Shown piece by piece: positions 25,045 through 31,228 of a stretch of 64,000 nt of DNA. The stretch comes from Pseudomonadota bacterium (lineage in GTDB: Bacteria > Pseudomonadota > Alphaproteobacteria > UBA1280 > RI-95), in assembly GCA_016125375.1 (NCBI GenBank), contig WGLU01000006.1, forward strand, positions 62,001 to 126,000, written 5' to 3'. A program made the position numbers and the translations under genes. Every line of letters starts with the position of its first letter. The first letter of the stretch is position 1. The notes beneath the pieces were generated by a model. It made no database searches. It was not told where the DNA came from and worked only from the letters and a program-made list of their open reading frames with translations.

Positions 25045-26229
25045 TTACTTGGCTTCCTTGCGCTTGAGCGCCTTGATGAACGGCATGTCGCTCATATGCT
25101 CGACGACGATGCCGAAGGCACCTTCGCCGAAGGTCTCGGCCGCTGCGTAGAAGCTATCCACGCTATCGACCGGGCACATGGCGCCGTCGTGCAGGTTCAT
25201 CACCGCGCGGATGAAATCGCCGCGTTCGACGTGAGCCTTTTCGGCGGGCGAGCCGGCTTCCACGCTCTGGACCATCAGGCCCATCTGCGGGTTGTCCAGC
25301 AGGACCAGGCCGAAGTTGTCGTAGACGACGCTCTTGCCGACACGGACCACCCGCGACGGGATGGTGATGCTGACCAGCTCTTCCTTGCCCGCACGCAGCA
25401 GGCGGAAGATGACTGCTTCACCGGCGTAGCGCTGAAGCGCGTAGTTGAACGCTTCGGCCTGCTTCATCCGGATATCGCCGATCTGGAGGATCAGGTCACC
25501 GAACAGCAGCTTGCCACCGAGCGCACTGCGCTCGTCCACCGTGTTGACCACGATGCCGCGGGTGTTGCGGCGGCCGTAGGCCTCGGCCAGAACCGGATCG
25601 ACGGCGCGGGCCATGAGCGAGATGTCCGTCGGCATGACGCTGCCGCCGTGGGTCAGGATCTGGTCGACAACGCGCATGAAGTCGTTGATCTTGATCGAGA
25701 ACCCCAGATTCACTTGGCCACCGCCGACGATGACCGCCGCCGAGTTGATGCCGATGAGCTCGCCGCTGTTGTTGAACAGGCCGCCGCCGGAGTTACCGGG
25801 GCTGATGGCTGCGTCCGTCTGGAAGCACGGCAGGCTGGGCAGGCTGAACTGGTCACGCTGGCTGATGATGCCGCCCGTGATCGTGAACTTGAGGCCGGCG
25901 TCGAGGGGCGAACCCACGGCGAAGACCTGGTCACGAACGTCGACCTTGTCCGAGTCGCCGATGATGGCGGTCGGCATGTTGGCCGGGGCGTCCTTCAACT
26001 CCAGCACAGCCACATCCGAAGCCGGGCACATGCCGATGAGCTTGGCATCGTAGTGCTCGTCCTCGAAAGTCTCCACGGTCAGGGACTTGAAGGTCCCCAC
26101 GCAGTGGGCATTGGTGATGACCAGCGTGCGGTCGCCGCGCGTGACGAGCACGCCGGAGCCGAGGCTGGCGCTTTCGTGCGAACGACGGAACAGGAAGACA
26201 GAAGTTGCCTGGATGTTGTCGGTTTTCAT
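25045..26229 (-). CDS. HtrA-like trypsin-fold serine protease with C-terminal PDZ-like domains (A)
   Basis: The 394-aa protein has the catalytic triad His42 (TNAHCVG), Asp72 (ASDVAVLE) and Ser147 (GNSGGG). Two PDZ-like regions follow, one around FGDLILQIGDIRM and a second around GDFIRAVMN. It has no signal peptide or membrane anchor, so unlike DegP/DegS it is predicted cytosolic. ATG 26229 is preferred to the open frame to 26280 because GGAG lies upstream. The leader is pyrimidine-rich, codons end in C/G and it has its own terminator. First of three similar genes in a row. Confidence 0.9.
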   Translation of the reverse strand: MKTDNIQATSVFLFRRSHESASLGSGVLVTRGDRTLVITNAHCVGTFKSLTVETFEDEHYDAKLIGMCPASDVAVLELKDAPANMPTAIIGDSDKVDVRDQVFAVGSPLDAGLKFTITGGIISQRDQFSLPSLPCFQTDAAISPGNSGGGLFNNSGELIGINSAAVIVGGGQVNLGFSIKINDFMRVVDQILTHGGSVMPTDISLMARAVDPVLAEAYGRRNTRGIVVNTVDERSALGGKLLFGDLILQIGDIRMKQAEAFNYALQRYAGEAVIFRLLRAGKEELVSITIPSRVVRVGKSVVYDNFGLVLLDNPQMGLMVQSVEAGSPAEKAHVERGDFIRAVMNLHDGAMCPVDSVDSFYAAAETFGEGAFGIVVEHMSDMPFIKALKRKEAK

Positions 26230-26342
26230 GATGTTTTTTCTCCAGCCGGAAACGGCAAAAAGAGAGGAAAAAGAAAGCAAGATGTGTAGCGGACTACCGA
26301 TAGCATTTCTTCCCTCGTGGGGGGTATTTCAAGGGCTTAGCA

Positions 26343-26376
26343 TAAAAAAAACGCCCCCCGCGAGGGAGGGCGTTTC
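26343..26376 (-). terminator. Terminator of the second HtrA-like gene
   Basis: Minus strand CGCCCTCC-CTCGC-GGGGGGCG, with one G-T pair, followed by eight T. Confidence 0.88.
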
Positions 26377-26390
26377 GTTTGATGGCGGAT

Positions 26391-27539
26391 TTACGCGCTT
26401 TTGCGCTTGAGGCCGCGGAGCGTTTCCTGCCCCTTTTCCTCGACCTTGACGAGGAAGGCCTTCTTGCCAAAGCTGCGCGTACGCTTGTTGAAGGCGCCGA
26501 TGGTCTTGACCTCTTCCCAGCCGTCTGCCGTGGGCAGGGCCAGAATGATGTCACCCGGTTCGAAGTCGGCACGCTCGGCGGGCGAACCCGCTTCCACACC
26601 GACAACCACCAGACCCATCTGGCGCTCGTTCTTGAGCGCGAGGCCGTAGGCATTGTAGTTCAGCTTGTGGCTGGACCCCATCTGCACGGCCGGAATCGGC
26701 AGTTGCACCTGCATCTCGCGGCCATCACGCAGCAGCGTGACGGCAACCTCGTACCCGGCGAACTTCTGCAGGGCATAGGTCAGGCTGTCGCTCGTGCGGA
26801 TGCGCACATCGCCCACATGGAGGATGACGTCGCCGAACTTCAGCACCGTGCTCGAAACGCAGCGCTTTTCGATGACGTCGACCACCACGCCACGGGTGTG
26901 GCGCAGGCCCAGTGCCTCGGACAGAATGGGATCGAGCCCCTTACCGCCGAAGTACACACCCGGCACAACCGCACCGCCAAAGGCGAGGATCTGGCCGGCA
27001 ATGCGCAGCACATCGTTGATTTTCAGGGCAAAGGCGATGCCCGAGTTCTCGATGCCCGAGGAGTTGATGCCGATGAGCTCGCCCGCCTCGTTGAACAGGC
27101 CACCGCCGGAGTTACCGGAGTTGATGGCCGCGTCCACCTGGAAGCAGGGGATAATCGACAGCGAGAAATTTTCCTCGAGGCTGATGATGCCCCGGGTGAT
27201 GGTGAACTTCAGGCTGGAGTCGAGCGGCGAGCCGACGGCGTCCACGGTATCGCGGGCGCGCACCAGATCGGAGTTGCCGATCCTCAGGGGCTTGAGGCCG
27301 GTCGTGTCGTCCAGCACCAGCACAGCAACGTCCGACGCCTCGTCGGCGCCGACAATCCGTGCCTTGCGGAAGTCGTTGGTCCACGTCTCGATGGTCAGGT
27401 CGCGCACGTGCTCGACGCAGTGGGCGTTGGTCAGGATGTAGATGGCGTCGTTGATCTCCACAATCACGCCGGAGCCAAGGCTGGCGCCTTCGGCCGAGCG
27501 GTTGTAGATGACAACGGTCCCCTGTTGAATGGGATGCAT
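26391..27539 (-). CDS. HtrA-like trypsin-fold serine protease with C-terminal PDZ-like domains (B)
   Basis: This 382-aa paralogue of the preceding protease has His40 (TNAHCVEH), Asp70 (ASDVAVLV) and Ser144 (GNSGGG). PDZ-like segments occur at FGDVILHVGDVRI and in AGSPAERADFEPGDIILAL. ATG 27539 is chosen because GGAGG is eight bases upstream; the frame opens at 27662 but the added stretch reads as a shadow. No signal peptide. It has its own pyrimidine-rich leader and terminator, so the tandem arrangement is three single-gene units rather than one operon. Confidence 0.9.
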   Translation of the reverse strand: MHPIQQGTVVIYNRSAEGASLGSGVIVEINDAIYILTNAHCVEHVRDLTIETWTNDFRKARIVGADEASDVAVLVLDDTTGLKPLRIGNSDLVRARDTVDAVGSPLDSSLKFTITRGIISLEENFSLSIIPCFQVDAAINSGNSGGGLFNEAGELIGINSSGIENSGIAFALKINDVLRIAGQILAFGGAVVPGVYFGGKGLDPILSEALGLRHTRGVVVDVIEKRCVSSTVLKFGDVILHVGDVRIRTSDSLTYALQKFAGYEVAVTLLRDGREMQVQLPIPAVQMGSSHKLNYNAYGLALKNERQMGLVVVGVEAGSPAERADFEPGDIILALPTADGWEEVKTIGAFNKRTRSFGKKAFLVKVEEKGQETLRGLKRKSA

Positions 27540-27650
27540 AGGGCACCTCCGCGGTTGGGGGAAGCATGCAAAAGGGCATATGAGAGAAAAGAAAGAGGTA
27601 ACCTTGTATACACAGCAGATTAGACGATACCGGTGCAACAGGCAACAAAA

Positions 27651-27677
27651 GAAAAAGGCCACCCAAAGGTGGCCTTT
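27651..27677 (-). terminator. Terminator of the short HtrA-like gene
   Basis: Minus strand AGGCCACC-TTTG-GGTGGCCT followed by a T-rich run, directly after the stop codon. Confidence 0.85.
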
Positions 27678-27679
27678 CG

Positions 27680-28321
27680 TTAGATGTCGTCGCAGCAGTC
27701 GTTCGGCTTCTGACAGGAGCCGATGATCTTGCGAGCTTCGCAGAGCGCCTGATTCGCCTTGATGGCGAAACCGATGCCGTGGGAGGCGCCGGTCGGGCTC
27801 TTGATGAACGTGTTGATGCCGATCAGCTCGCCGTCCATGTTGAACAGGCCGCCACCGGAGTTACCCGGGTTGATGGCGGTGTCGGTCTGGAACAGGTCCA
27901 GACGGTTCACGTCCGGCTTCTTGCGCGCGCTGTGGCTGATGATGCCTTGGCTGACCGAGAAGGTCTCGCCCATGGGGCCGCCGATGGCGAAAACGCCCTT
28001 ACCGGCCTTGATGGCGCGGCAGTCACCCTTGGTCACCGGCTTGATGCCCGGGAACGGAGTGATTTTGATCACGGCAACGTCGGCCTTCTTGTCCAGACCC
28101 ACCAGCTTGGCCGGGAAGGTCTGACCGTCGAAGGTTTCCACCTCGATGGTGCCGCCGCCGCCCGCAACGTGGGCGTTGGTCAGGATGTGACCGTCGGTGT
28201 CGATGATGACGCCGGAGCCGTGCCCCGCCATCTGCTTGACGCCACCGAAAGTGCTGAAGATGTTGATCGCCACGCAGGAGGGCATGGCCTTGTCAACGGC
28301 TTTGGAAATGTCGTGGGACAT
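27680..28321 (-). CDS. Short HtrA-like serine protease, protease domain only (C)
   Basis: The 213-aa protein contains only the trypsin-like domain: His51 (TNAHVAG), Asp81 (KADVAVIK), Ser155 (GNSGGG). No PDZ domain and no signal peptide are present. A glycine-rich stretch follows the His. The C-terminus has a cysteine cluster (GSCQKPNDCC). GAGGGGAGA precedes ATG 28321. It shares the C/G-ending codon use and pyrimidine-rich leader of its two tandem relatives. Substrate delivery without PDZ is unexplained; a regulator or dedicated partner is possible. Confidence 0.88.
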   Translation of the reverse strand: MSHDISKAVDKAMPSCVAINIFSTFGGVKQMAGHGSGVIIDTDGHILTNAHVAGGGGTIEVETFDGQTFPAKLVGLDKKADVAVIKITPFPGIKPVTKGDCRAIKAGKGVFAIGGPMGETFSVSQGIISHSARKKPDVNRLDLFQTDTAINPGNSGGGLFNMDGELIGINTFIKSPTGASHGIGFAIKANQALCEARKIIGSCQKPNDCCDDI

Positions 28322-28513: not shown

Positions 28514-29581
28514 TTACGCCCAAGTAAAGTGGCCTTTTTCTGTACGCAAAAAACTAACCTTTTCAAGGCCTTCAAACATGTTTTCTTCTGTCCCGGTCAG
28601 CCAAAGCTGGCTGCCCAGAGACTGGATTTGGTTGAATAATCTGGCACGGTTTGTCTGGTCCAGATGGGCTGTCGCCTCGTCCAACAGCAGGCAAGGAGCC
28701 TGTCCGGTACGGTCCTTGATCAGGCGGCAGTGGGCAATGATGATATGCATGAGTGCGCGTTTATGCTGTCCCATAGAGGCCTCGGTCAGGGAGATGGCAG
28801 CGTCCGTGTCGGTCAGCGCACCTGTTACTTCCGTCCGGTGGGGGCCGTAATGGGTGCTGTTGAAGCGTTTGTCACGGCTGCGGTTGTCCAATAAAGCGGT
28901 GGTAAAGGTTGCCTCATCGGGCAAGGATTCGCCCTTTTCAGCGCTACCATGCAGGGAAAGGCTGACGTCAGCCAGCAAGGGAGACAGGGCTGCAAGATAC
29001 GTCTGGCGGGCGGCCAGTACCTGTACACCCCAACGGGCAGCCTGTTTTTCCTCTATGGCTATCCAATCAGCATCCCCACTGTCCTTGAGCAGACGCGCAC
29101 GGTTCTGGATGTGATGGGTGTAGCGGGTCAGGTGTTCTGCGTGGTCTGGCAAAAGCCCGAAGACCAGCCGGTCAAAAAAGCGTCTGCGCGGGGCTGGGCC
29201 GTCAAAGAACAGGCGATCCATCTCCGGCGTAAACCAGACAACCGAGCCAAGGGCAGCCAAAGGTGCCGCACTGGTCAGCGGCTGGCCATCCAGTTTGATT
29301 TGGCGTTTTTTGCGATCAAACTGCATGCCGAGCGTATGGTCCTCGCCTCCGGAGCGGATGCGGGCAAACACGCCCCAGCTGGGTTGGTTGTGGCGGGTGA
29401 TTTCCTCAAGTTTAGCACGGTGGAGTCCGCGTCCTGGTGTCAGCATGGACAGGGCTTCCAGCAGCGATGTTTTACCGGCACCGTTTGGTCCCACAACCGC
29501 ATAGGCACCGCCGGCCGGCACCTCAACGGTGGCTGCCTCTATGTTACGGAATTGCTGGATTTTGAGCGTCTTTATCCACAT
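28514..29581 (-). CDS. recF: DNA replication and repair protein RecF
   Basis: SMC-like ATPase of the RecFOR pathway, loading RecA on gapped DNA. The 355-aa protein has Walker A GPNGAGKTSL at about residue 31, the signature-like SLTEASMGQHKR and Walker B LLLDEATAHLD. The start codon overlaps a perfect DnaA box (29572-29580). It belongs to the dnaA-dnaN-recF-gyrB order, although an RNA/small-ORF unit lies between it and dnaN and three proteases between it and gyrB. Confidence 0.95.
   Translation of the reverse strand: MWIKTLKIQQFRNIEAATVEVPAGGAYAVVGPNGAGKTSLLEALSMLTPGRGLHRAKLEEITRHNQPSWGVFARIRSGGEDHTLGMQFDRKKRQIKLDGQPLTSAAPLAALGSVVWFTPEMDRLFFDGPAPRRRFFDRLVFGLLPDHAEHLTRYTHHIQNRARLLKDSGDADWIAIEEKQAARWGVQVLAARQTYLAALSPLLADVSLSLHGSAEKGESLPDEATFTTALLDNRSRDKRFNSTHYGPHRTEVTGALTDTDAAISLTEASMGQHKRALMHIIIAHCRLIKDRTGQAPCLLLDEATAHLDQTNRARLFNQIQSLGSQLWLTGTEENMFEGLEKVSFLRTEKGHFTWA
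29572..29580 (+). promoter_or_regulatory. DnaA box at the recF start
   Basis: TTATCCACA matches the 9-mer consensus exactly and covers the recF initiation codon. A single box is likely a regulatory site rather than an origin. Confidence 0.5.
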
Positions 29582-29740: not shown

Positions 29741-29937
29741 GGTAGAGCGGGTGTTCCGCTCTGGGGCGTCAGAACCTCATATTCCTACGCGACCTCAGGC
29801 ATTGGTCGTTAAACAACATGCCGCCAACCCGCTATGTCGGGGAGGCGGTGAATACAATACGGTGTAAGCTGGAATAAGCCGCGCCGTTCGTAGGACGGTT
29901 CTGAACTCCCCGGCACCCATTGGGTGCCGCTTTGTTT
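29741..29937 (+). ncRNA. Structured RNA, about 195 nt, ending in a terminator (leader RNA or 6S-like)
   Basis: Distant segments pair to close the molecule: GGGGCGT-CAGAACC (29763-29776) with GGTTCTG-A-ACTCCCC (29897-29911), then TCCTACG (29783-29789) with CGTAGGA (29889-29895). Inside are hairpins CGACC/GGTCG (29790-29808), CCGCC..CCCG-CTATGT-CGGG..GGCGG (29821-29848) and CGG..GCT-GGAATA-AGC..CCG. A terminator hairpin closes the 3' end. Length and long closing helix recall 6S RNA, but the branched interior does not fit it well. A 39-aa reading frame starts 24 bases later, so it may be a regulatory leader. It does not match any riboswitch I can recognise. Confidence 0.5.
29911..29937 (+). terminator. 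Terminator or attenuator hairpin in the RNA leader
   Basis: CGGCACCC-ATT-GGGTGCCG followed by CTTTGTTT. Its 3' arm (CCG) is also needed by the next hairpin (CCGC-TTTGT-TTA-ACAAA-GGCGG, 29927-29948), which runs into the ribosome site of the small gene, so the two are mutually exclusive. Confidence 0.65.
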
Positions 29938-29960
29938 AACAAAGGCGGGAGGGTAAGCGG

Positions 29961-30080
29961 GTGAAAAAGCCATCAGCTCAACTATGGTTATTGGTTGCAT
30001 GTGTGGTTTTGCTCGGCGCAATGATTGCCTTGCCTGTGCTTGTGTGCTCTGTTGCACCGTGCACCCTGCCCACGCCGTAA
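29961..30080 (+). CDS. Small hydrophobic membrane peptide, 39 aa
   Basis: A GTG start is preceded by GGGAGGG seven bases upstream. The peptide has a basic N-terminus (MKKPSAQ), one hydrophobic helix of about 22 residues (LWLLVACVVLLGAMIALPVLV) and a short C-terminal tail with two cysteines and prolines (CSVAPCTLPTP). A bidirectional terminator follows the TAA. The strong ribosome site, terminator and structured leader support a real gene. The size and shape fit small stress peptides and type I toxins of the Hok/TisB kind; no homology was recognised. Function unknown. Confidence 0.6.
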   Translation: MKKPSAQLWLLVACVVLLGAMIALPVLVCSVAPCTLPTP

Positions 30081-30081
30081 A

Positions 30082-30110
30082 AAAGCCCGCATTGCTGCGG
30101 GCTTTGTTTT
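30082..30110. terminator. Bidirectional terminator between small ORF and dnaN
   Basis: AAAGCCCGCA-TTGC-TGCGGGCTTT with A run on the left and TGTTTT on the right. It ends the small ORF and, on the minus strand, dnaN. Confidence 0.9.
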
Positions 30111-30124
30111 GTATGAACACTAGG

Positions 30125-31228
30125 TCAAATGCGCATTGGCATCAGGACGAACAGGGTGTCCATGTCGTTCGGGTCCTTCAGCAGAACGGGCGAATTACCG
30201 TCCTTCAGGTAGAACTTCACATCTTCACCGTCCATCAGTTGGCCGATTTCGGAAACATATTTGGCGTTAAAGCCAACATCCATGTTCTGGGCATCGTAGC
30301 TGATGGCCAGATCTTCGATGGCGTTTTCCTGATCAGGGTTGTTGGCGCTGATGGTCAGGTGGTTCGGCGCAATGCTGAACTTAACCGATTTGGACTTCTC
30401 GTGCGAGAGGATGGATACGCGGTCCACGGCTTGCAGCAGGGACTGGCGGGAAACATCCATCTCCAGCTTGTTATCGTAGGGGATAACACGCTCGTAGTCC
30501 GGGAAGGTACCGTCGATGACTTTGGAGGTCAGCACAACTTCGGATGTCTCGAACTGGATTTTCTTGTCGGTCACATGCAGGGTGACGTTTTTGGCTTCCT
30601 CAGCCAGTTTACGCAGCTCGCCAACAGTTTTGCGCGGAATAATCACGCTCGGCATATCGGCAGCGCCTTCCGGCAGCGGGTATTCGGCACGGGCCAGACG
30701 GTGACCGTCGGTCGCAACAAAGCGCAGCTTGTCGCCTTGCACGTGCATGTACACACCGTTGAGGTATTGGCGGGTATCGTCAACCGATGCTGCAAACTGG
30801 GCCTTGGTCAGCAGGCGGCGCAGCAGGTCGCCGGAAAGTTCGAACGTGACGCCGTCTTCGACCGTGGTCATGTCGGGGAAGGCATTTGCATCGAGGCAGG
30901 CCAGCGAGAACTTGGCTTTACCGCCGGAAACACTCAGGCGGCTGCCGTCAGCCGACAACTCGGCGCTGATCATCACGCCGTCCGGCAGCTTGCGCACGAT
31001 TTCGTAAAGTTTGTGGGCATTCACAGTGGTTACGCCTGCGCCTTCCACAAAGGCATCTGCGGTACCTTGTACGGCAATGTCGTTGTCGGTTGCGGTTGTG
31101 ACCAGTTTGTTGTCCTTCGCTTCCAGGCGAACGTTCGACAAAATGGCAATGCTGCTGCGCTTTTCAACCACAGACTGGGTGTGCGACAGGTTCTTCAGCA
31201 ACACGTCACGGGTAATGGAAAACTTCAT
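30125..31228 (-). CDS. dnaN: DNA polymerase III beta sliding clamp
   Basis: The 367-aa protein shows the three-domain clamp architecture: MKFSITRDVLLKNL at the N-terminus, a central FPDYERVIP, and a C-terminus ending in LFVLMPMRI, all typical of bacterial clamps. It encircles DNA and tethers polymerases and repair factors. It sits directly downstream of dnaA on the minus strand, separated by about 110 bp. Confidence 0.97.
   Translation of the reverse strand: MKFSITRDVLLKNLSHTQSVVEKRSSIAILSNVRLEAKDNKLVTTATDNDIAVQGTADAFVEGAGVTTVNAHKLYEIVRKLPDGVMISAELSADGSRLSVSGGKAKFSLACLDANAFPDMTTVEDGVTFELSGDLLRRLLTKAQFAASVDDTRQYLNGVYMHVQGDKLRFVATDGHRLARAEYPLPEGAADMPSVIIPRKTVGELRKLAEEAKNVTLHVTDKKIQFETSEVVLTSKVIDGTFPDYERVIPYDNKLEMDVSRQSLLQAVDRVSILSHEKSKSVKFSIAPNHLTISANNPDQENAIEDLAISYDAQNMDVGFNAKYVSEIGQLMDGEDVKFYLKDGNSPVLLKDPNDMDTLFVLMPMRI

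Follow-up and report, generated by a model that had tools for sequence, protein, structure and literature searches.

Phages P1 and P7 carry the C4 antisense RNA (RF01695, with c4-a1b1 as RF03163; Rfam clan CL00128). In the annotated immI region of phage P1, the segments a1 and b1 come first, followed by the 77-nt C4 RNA and then by a2 and b2 before icd. On the Rfam structure of this RNA, the P3 loop contains b', the junction of P3 with P1 contains a', and a1 sits in a small hairpin. According to one account (PMC5320573), RNase P cuts C4 at stem P1, b' covers the ribosome site and a' serves specificity. In the Salmonella prophage Gifsy-1, IsrK is the leader of an antirepressor operon, whose short terminated form targets, in trans, the read-through form of the same RNA (PMC4825925). 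The same source presents the CI RNA of satellite phage P4 as a processed antisense RNA with complements upstream and downstream, which acts on transcription termination (PMC4825925).

RF02221, or sRNA-Xcc1, belongs to no Rfam clan. It is said in one paper to be integron-borne. In Xanthomonas campestris it was isolated as a discrete 88-nt RNA (PMC2996969), and in Xanthomonas integrons it stands upstream of symE in cassettes, by a mechanism that was left open (PMC12444791). For Xylella fastidiosa Temecula1, five homologues of sRNA-Xcc1 have been tabulated at 1313466–1315082, at intervals of about 383 bp (PMC12189769); this spacing would be in keeping with tandemly arrayed units, each an RNA with a small gene, of the size described below. 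In the open-access papers that we searched, we found neither a link between RF02221 and C4 nor a description of upstream or downstream complements, or of a terminator variant, for sRNA-Xcc1.

Here we analysed a unit on the + strand of a 64,000-nucleotide stretch of DNA (the window) from an alphaproteobacterial genome of 2 Mb in 9 contigs. The reading that we favour, with some reserve, is that of an RF02221-family leader with a C4-type antisense RNA, a chromosomal variant that would work as an attenuator and control a 39-aa membrane peptide (Table 1). An earlier note, made from the sequence, had placed a structured RNA and a small gene inside the dnaN-recF interval, and the gene coordinates bear this out, with dnaN at 30125–31228 and recF at 28514–29581, both on the − strand. 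The nearest named relative by DnaN is the alphaproteobacterial MAG OFTM141 (69% identity), which has no such unit beside dnaN; the dnaN-adjacent stretch there (L104, 5265–6972) holds genes that look ankyrin-repeat-like by eye only. Likewise by eye only, three adjoining serine-protease-like (HtrA-type) genes occupy 25045–28321 of the window on the − strand, between gyrB and recF. A DNA similarity search of 60 relatives found little besides the terminator palindrome at 30082–30105, and no promoter passed a sigma-70-type scan of the region.

Table 1. Features of the leader RNA and the peptide gene in the window.
Feature	Position	Strand	Evidence
5' hairpin of leader (GAGCGGG..CCGCTCT)	29744..29762	+	fold
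a1-like target TCAGAACC	29769..29776	+	exact complement of 29897–29904 (junction a')
b1-like target TCCTACG	29783..29789	+	exact complement of 29889–29895 (P3 loop b')
C4-type core RNA, full-length RF02221 (sRNA-Xcc1) match	29836..29922	+	51.7 bits, E 3.2e-8; covariation
Closing stem P1, 5' arm GTCGGGGAG; expected 5' end of mature RNA	29836..29844	+	pairs with 29906–29914
P2 hairpin with conserved internal loop GAATACAATAC / GGAATAA	29845..29882	+	alignment, covariation
P3 hairpin; loop and 3' side hold b' (CGTAGGA, 29889–29895)	29884..29898	+	covariation, complementarity
a' (GGTTCTGA), P3-P1 junction	29897..29904	+	complementarity to 29769–29776
Closing stem P1, 3' arm CTCCCCGGC, overlaps terminator	29906..29914	+	terminator scan, folds
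Intrinsic terminator, stem 29911–29929 (CGGCACCC-ATT-GGGTGCCG) and T-rich tail CTTTGTTT; excludes stem P1	29911..29937	+	same place in 31/99 loci
SD-adjacent hairpin on read-through (CGCTTTG..CAAAGGCG)	about 29927..29948	+	folds
Shine-Dalgarno (SD) GGGAGGG	29947..29953	+	sequence, 7 nt before GTG
ORF, 39 aa, GTG start, single hydrophobic helix, two Cys	29961..30080	+	no family match
Terminator of peptide gene, tail GTTTTGT	30082..30105	+	terminator scan, sequence

The leader is strongly structured. The minimum free energy of 29741–29945 is −96.8 kcal/mol, against −68.8 ± 4.7 kcal/mol for dinucleotide shuffles (z −6.0), and none of 200 shuffles was as good, in agreement with the closed multi-hairpin RNA of about 195 nt that had been noted from the sequence. 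A sensitive Rfam scan returned one strong match within this RNA, to RF02221, which spans model positions 1–87 of 87 and is significant, lying 1.3 bits under the curated cut-off of 53. The covariance analysis that the note had called for was run on the window and 67 relatives: stems P1, P2 and P3 strongly covary in these 68 sequences, with 92% of the cells paired and double changes at 18 of the 20 pairs, and the covariation score is 0.593, compared with 0.173 after shuffling and at most 0.146 for slid versions. Further weak Rfam matches at 30030–30163 (Leu_leader, Trp_leader, RyhB and others) fall on a plain terminator palindrome, far below the cut-offs, and were discarded.

These matches bear on two other identities proposed for the RNA. 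A diverged 6S RNA next to an unrelated small gene had been suggested by the long closed hairpin of about 195 nt, and the idea gains something from the genomes of the window's order, which have no RF00013 match to fill that place. For practical purposes it is refuted: the genome has no RF00013 match at E 10, and the RNA instead matches RF02221 significantly and carries a bipartite guide. We searched for 6S RNA in the genome and 40 relatives and found none in the window's order; RF00013 had no match in six genomes of this order (G000–G005), and most other sampled alphaproteobacteria have one. A ligand-binding riboswitch, in which the conserved internal loop of P2 (GAATACAATAC/GGAATAA) would be the aptamer, could account for the conservation of that loop and for the competition between terminator and closing stem. 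We nevertheless hold it to be very improbable. No Rfam riboswitch family is among the matches, the guide segments in the core pair with RNA on its flanks at the same locus, as an aptamer would not, the genes behind such RNAs share no ligand or pathway theme, and sRNA-Xcc1 itself was recovered as a discrete RNA (PMC2996969).

RNAs of this type are widespread. A class-wide search found RF02221-like RNAs in 56 of 385 genomes, with up to 11 per genome. We also built a covariance model, R2, which has the window in its training set, so that the window's 81 bits prove nothing; with it, 52 of 349 Pseudomonadota genomes proved to have RNAs of this kind, and the genome of the window a second copy, one outside the training set (50.8 bits). 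By a strict pattern, RF02221 RNAs are abundant in the viral contigs of IMG/VR. The RNA of Vibrio phage VPBES is already annotated as sRNA-Xcc1, and an RF02221-type RNA stands in front of ant in E. coli phage Rac-SA53. For comparison we assembled 99 genome loci and 62 viral loci. The genes behind these RNAs include antirepressors with Bro-N, Rha, KilA-N and P22_AR_N domains, as well as SymE and YdaS-like toxins. At the genome loci the RNA usually lies some 20–60 nt upstream of a start codon that has a good SD, the starts having been picked by a simple SD rule, and the small gene in the window is thus probably not unrelated to the RNA, contrary to what the earlier note had allowed. The same RNA type is present across proteobacteria and their phages, where it had been filed as an unexplained 'sRNA-Xcc1'.

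Copies within one genome differ little in stems P1 and P2, but each has its own version of the P3 loop and of the P3-P1 junction. We examined these variable segments by a two-block test, in which exact complements of the loop and the junction had to occur in the right order and spacing within the locus's own upstream 130 nt; it replaced an earlier best-ungapped-score test, which discriminated poorly, since every control finds a match through the constant GGTT/AACC part. Complements corresponding to a1/b1 are present in the own leader of 60 of 70 loci; the counts were 63 of 1500 when loci were paired across genomes and 12 of 194 when they were paired with another copy in their genome. Since the pattern had first been noticed in this 70-locus set, it was tested in two sets unused for discovery: a1/b1 were found at 22 of 28 held-out genome loci (controls, 54/754) and at 46 of 62 viral loci (controls, 170/3782). 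With other loci as controls, an upstream complement thus appears in only 4–7%. The pairing is specific for the own locus, and the window has both pairs (Table 1). A small stem around a1, here formed by GGGG/CCTC flanking TCAGAACC, is only mildly enriched (108/135 loci versus 44% of controls), as is an anti-P1 hairpin upstream of stem P1 (80/99 loci versus 44%), and we place no weight on either. The hairpin loop near 29808 matches 29934–29942 over 9 nt; by eye this match is not kept in relatives, and it was set aside.

Many loci have a second pair of complements, a2/b2, at the ribosome site of the gene that follows the RNA (15/28 held-out loci versus 33/754 controls; 44/62 viral loci versus 219/3782). 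By the two-block test this pair is absent in the window, where the guide pairs with a1/b1 of the leader and not with the ribosome site of the peptide gene; nor does the genome hold a second bipartite target of this guide elsewhere, save on the opposite strand of the RNA itself. At a locus of another genome (L123 1260–1600, genome G554), an RF02221-type RNA is followed by a SymE-like gene with a2/b2 at its ribosome site, which we take to be the SymE homologue among the downstream genes; two more RF02221-type RNAs lie within about 10 kb of it. The second copy in the genome of the window (contig 7, 263114–263204; locus L111, 1501–1591) has an a1/b1 code of its own, CCTAGTGT and GGTTATCAA, together with a late terminator and the same layout as the window, and the gene behind it looks like that of a TM2-domain membrane protein. 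Two small alphaproteobacterial genomes have ten or more copies each (L067–L074 in G098, L075–L081 in G293), in which the cores are nearly constant and the guides copy-specific, and several of these copies stand before paralogous small proteins of unknown function.

The layout of the terminators sets the window apart from the phage-type loci. A terminator scan of the region found two terminator-like hairpins, with 0.9 expected. The first, whose tail is weak, takes the 3' arm of stem P1 into its own 5' arm, so that stem P1 and the terminator exclude each other. The earlier note had named a different competition, between the 3' arm of the terminator and a second hairpin reaching the ribosome site. 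Folds confirm that hairpin, which takes up the end of the terminator's 3' arm and extends into the SD, but the overlap with stem P1 is the weightier of the two. A late terminator over the 3' arm of stem P1 is found at 31 of 99 genome loci, compared with 34 of 779 controls, and these 31 loci, the window and the second copy in its genome among them, hardly overlap with those that have a2/b2. At loci not of this late-terminator type, an early terminator often lies downstream of a1/b1 and upstream of the core (32 of 68 genome loci and 22 of 62 viral loci); it occurs at 1 of 29 loci of the late-terminator group (controls, 13/471). The downstream products differ as well: their median length is 75 aa in the late-terminator group and 155 aa in the others, and membrane-type products, called by a simple hydropathy rule at loci that are not all independent, make up 15 of 31 versus 9 of 55 (p 0.0024).

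The product in the window is of this kind. The GTG-start peptide with one membrane helix and two cysteines is encoded as it had been described, with one very hydrophobic stretch in its hydropathy profile, and the gene ends at a terminator-like hairpin of its own, a palindrome that can also serve dnaN on the opposite strand. Its SD, its transmembrane helix, the flanking terminators and its position suggest that the ORF is a gene. The peptide is an orphan among 142 alphaproteobacterial genomes (best other E 0.036), and there is no close relative with which it could be compared. This orphan status would agree with a C4-type RNA that acts on its own, in trans on phage or other mRNAs as in superinfection immunity, the peptide being incidental or a leaderless remnant; so would the service of C4 in phage immunity and the abundance of RF02221 RNAs in viral contigs. 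We consider such a role quite unlikely, given that the genome offers no second bipartite target, that a well-placed gene follows the RNA in the sister copy and in most relatives, and that a late terminator over stem P1 is sensible only if something downstream is controlled.

We therefore return to the attenuator that we favour. The RNA family, its structure, the own-locus pairing of a1/b1 and the overlap between stem P1 and the terminator are established by the present analysis; beyond these, the unit may work as follows. The guide complement a1/b1 would form the 5' end of the same transcript as the core. In the nascent leader, a1/b1 would grip a'/b' in cis and keep stem P1 open, whereupon the 3' arm of P1 would join the intrinsic terminator and the peptide would be off. 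Were a1/b1 occupied, for example by mature core RNA in trans, stem P1 could close before the terminator is complete, and RNA polymerase would read through into the peptide gene. The closed core might then be excised as a stable RNA, a step that RNase P performs in the case of C4; the mature RNA would begin at stem P1, as C4 does (PMC5320573). The G at the start of stem P1 and the ACC after it are compatible with predicted RNase P processing in the window, although an RCC after stem P1, which is useful for RNase P, is not general, being present in only 28 of the 68 core sequences as aligned. In folds of the growing transcript, the locked form is the better one by 15–21 kcal/mol up to the terminator; taken as far as the terminator's end, and counting the terminator once it is out, the lock between a1/b1 and a'/b' beats the P1-closed form by 15–23 kcal/mol, a gap that shrinks to 9.5 kcal/mol at the full end at 29963; in folds without a1/b1, stem P1 closes before the terminator is out. 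By these energies a1/b1 looks like a latch, but they ignore pseudoknots and timing, and the direction of control is therefore the least certain step. IsrK offers a precedent for a short form that acts in trans on its own long form, and P4 CI for antisense control of termination (PMC4825925).

The opposite sign of control would make the core the RNA antitoxin of a type I toxin-antitoxin-like unit, which pairs with a1/b1 on newly made transcripts, promotes their termination as P4 CI does and silences a toxic peptide. A short single-helix peptide behind an antisense-type RNA, the SymE and YdaS-like toxins behind other family members and the separate pairing code of each copy all fit this arrangement, as does P4 CI, which pairs with an upstream complement and causes termination (PMC4825925). 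Most genes behind RNAs of the family, however, are not toxins, the peptide has no relative among known toxins, and in the predicted folds it is the cis lock that favours termination and trans pairing that would undo it; we judge an antitoxin to be unlikely here. The suggestion of an attenuator or a type I toxin-like unit came close; the C4-type antisense family and, in the window's subgroup, the competition of the terminator with the closing stem have to be added.

Comparison across the 99 genome loci and 62 viral loci shows that RF02221 RNAs are laid out like C4 of phages P1 and P7. Both have stems P1, P2 and P3; the P3 loop holds b', the junction from P3 to P1 holds a', and a1/b1 stand 60–100 nt upstream. 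Phage P1 even has, in its sequence, a hairpin before a1 at the same place as the 5' hairpin of the window. The P2 of RF02221 is longer than that of C4 and has the conserved internal loop. RF01695 has no match in the window at E 10 and none in 20 relatives at E 0.05, and model R2 did not find the C4 of phage P1; because the two models do not see each other, we claim the same plan and not proven descent. The orphan family sRNA-Xcc1 hereby gains a candidate mechanism and, in C4, a relative in kind, and the guide complement at the symE ribosome site of a related locus suggests why sRNA-Xcc1 precedes symE in integron cassettes. Chromosomes would then have adopted the design of a phage immunity RNA for attenuation, with a pairing code particular to each locus. 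More broadly, and more tentatively than for the window itself, a phage-immunity-type RNA may now be a widespread chromosomal cassette, in which late-terminator units with orthogonal codes, several copies of them between alphaproteobacterial housekeeping genes, switch small and often membrane-bound products by attenuation in cis and trans.

Compared with the described systems, the window core shares sequence and structure with sRNA-Xcc1 over the full model length, at about 88 nt, and stem P1, the P2 internal loop and P3 are conserved between it and its 67 relatives; sRNA-Xcc1 was described as a trans-acting sRNA (PMC2996969). Type I toxin-antitoxin systems such as SymE/SymR likewise put a small product under the control of an antisense-type RNA, and one relative appears to control a SymE homologue; in those systems the RNA lies opposite the gene, while in the window it lies in the leader on the same strand, and the product is of membrane type. 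P4 CI, likened to the window from the account of its RNA in PMC4825925, has a downstream complement, which the window lacks. In the case of IsrK, an isrK-like match covers a1/b1 and the early terminator of phage P1; its terminator stands before the C4-like part, whereas that of the window's group stands behind it; IsrK also controls translation, unlike the attenuation proposed here. C4 has a2/b2 at the ribosome site, as do the phage-type RF02221 loci before antirepressor or SymE genes, and an antirepressor operon downstream, where the window has a late terminator instead and a 39-aa membrane peptide that matches no family. Finally, the antisense RNA of phage P1 represses, while in the direction proposed for the window the RNA acting in trans would activate.
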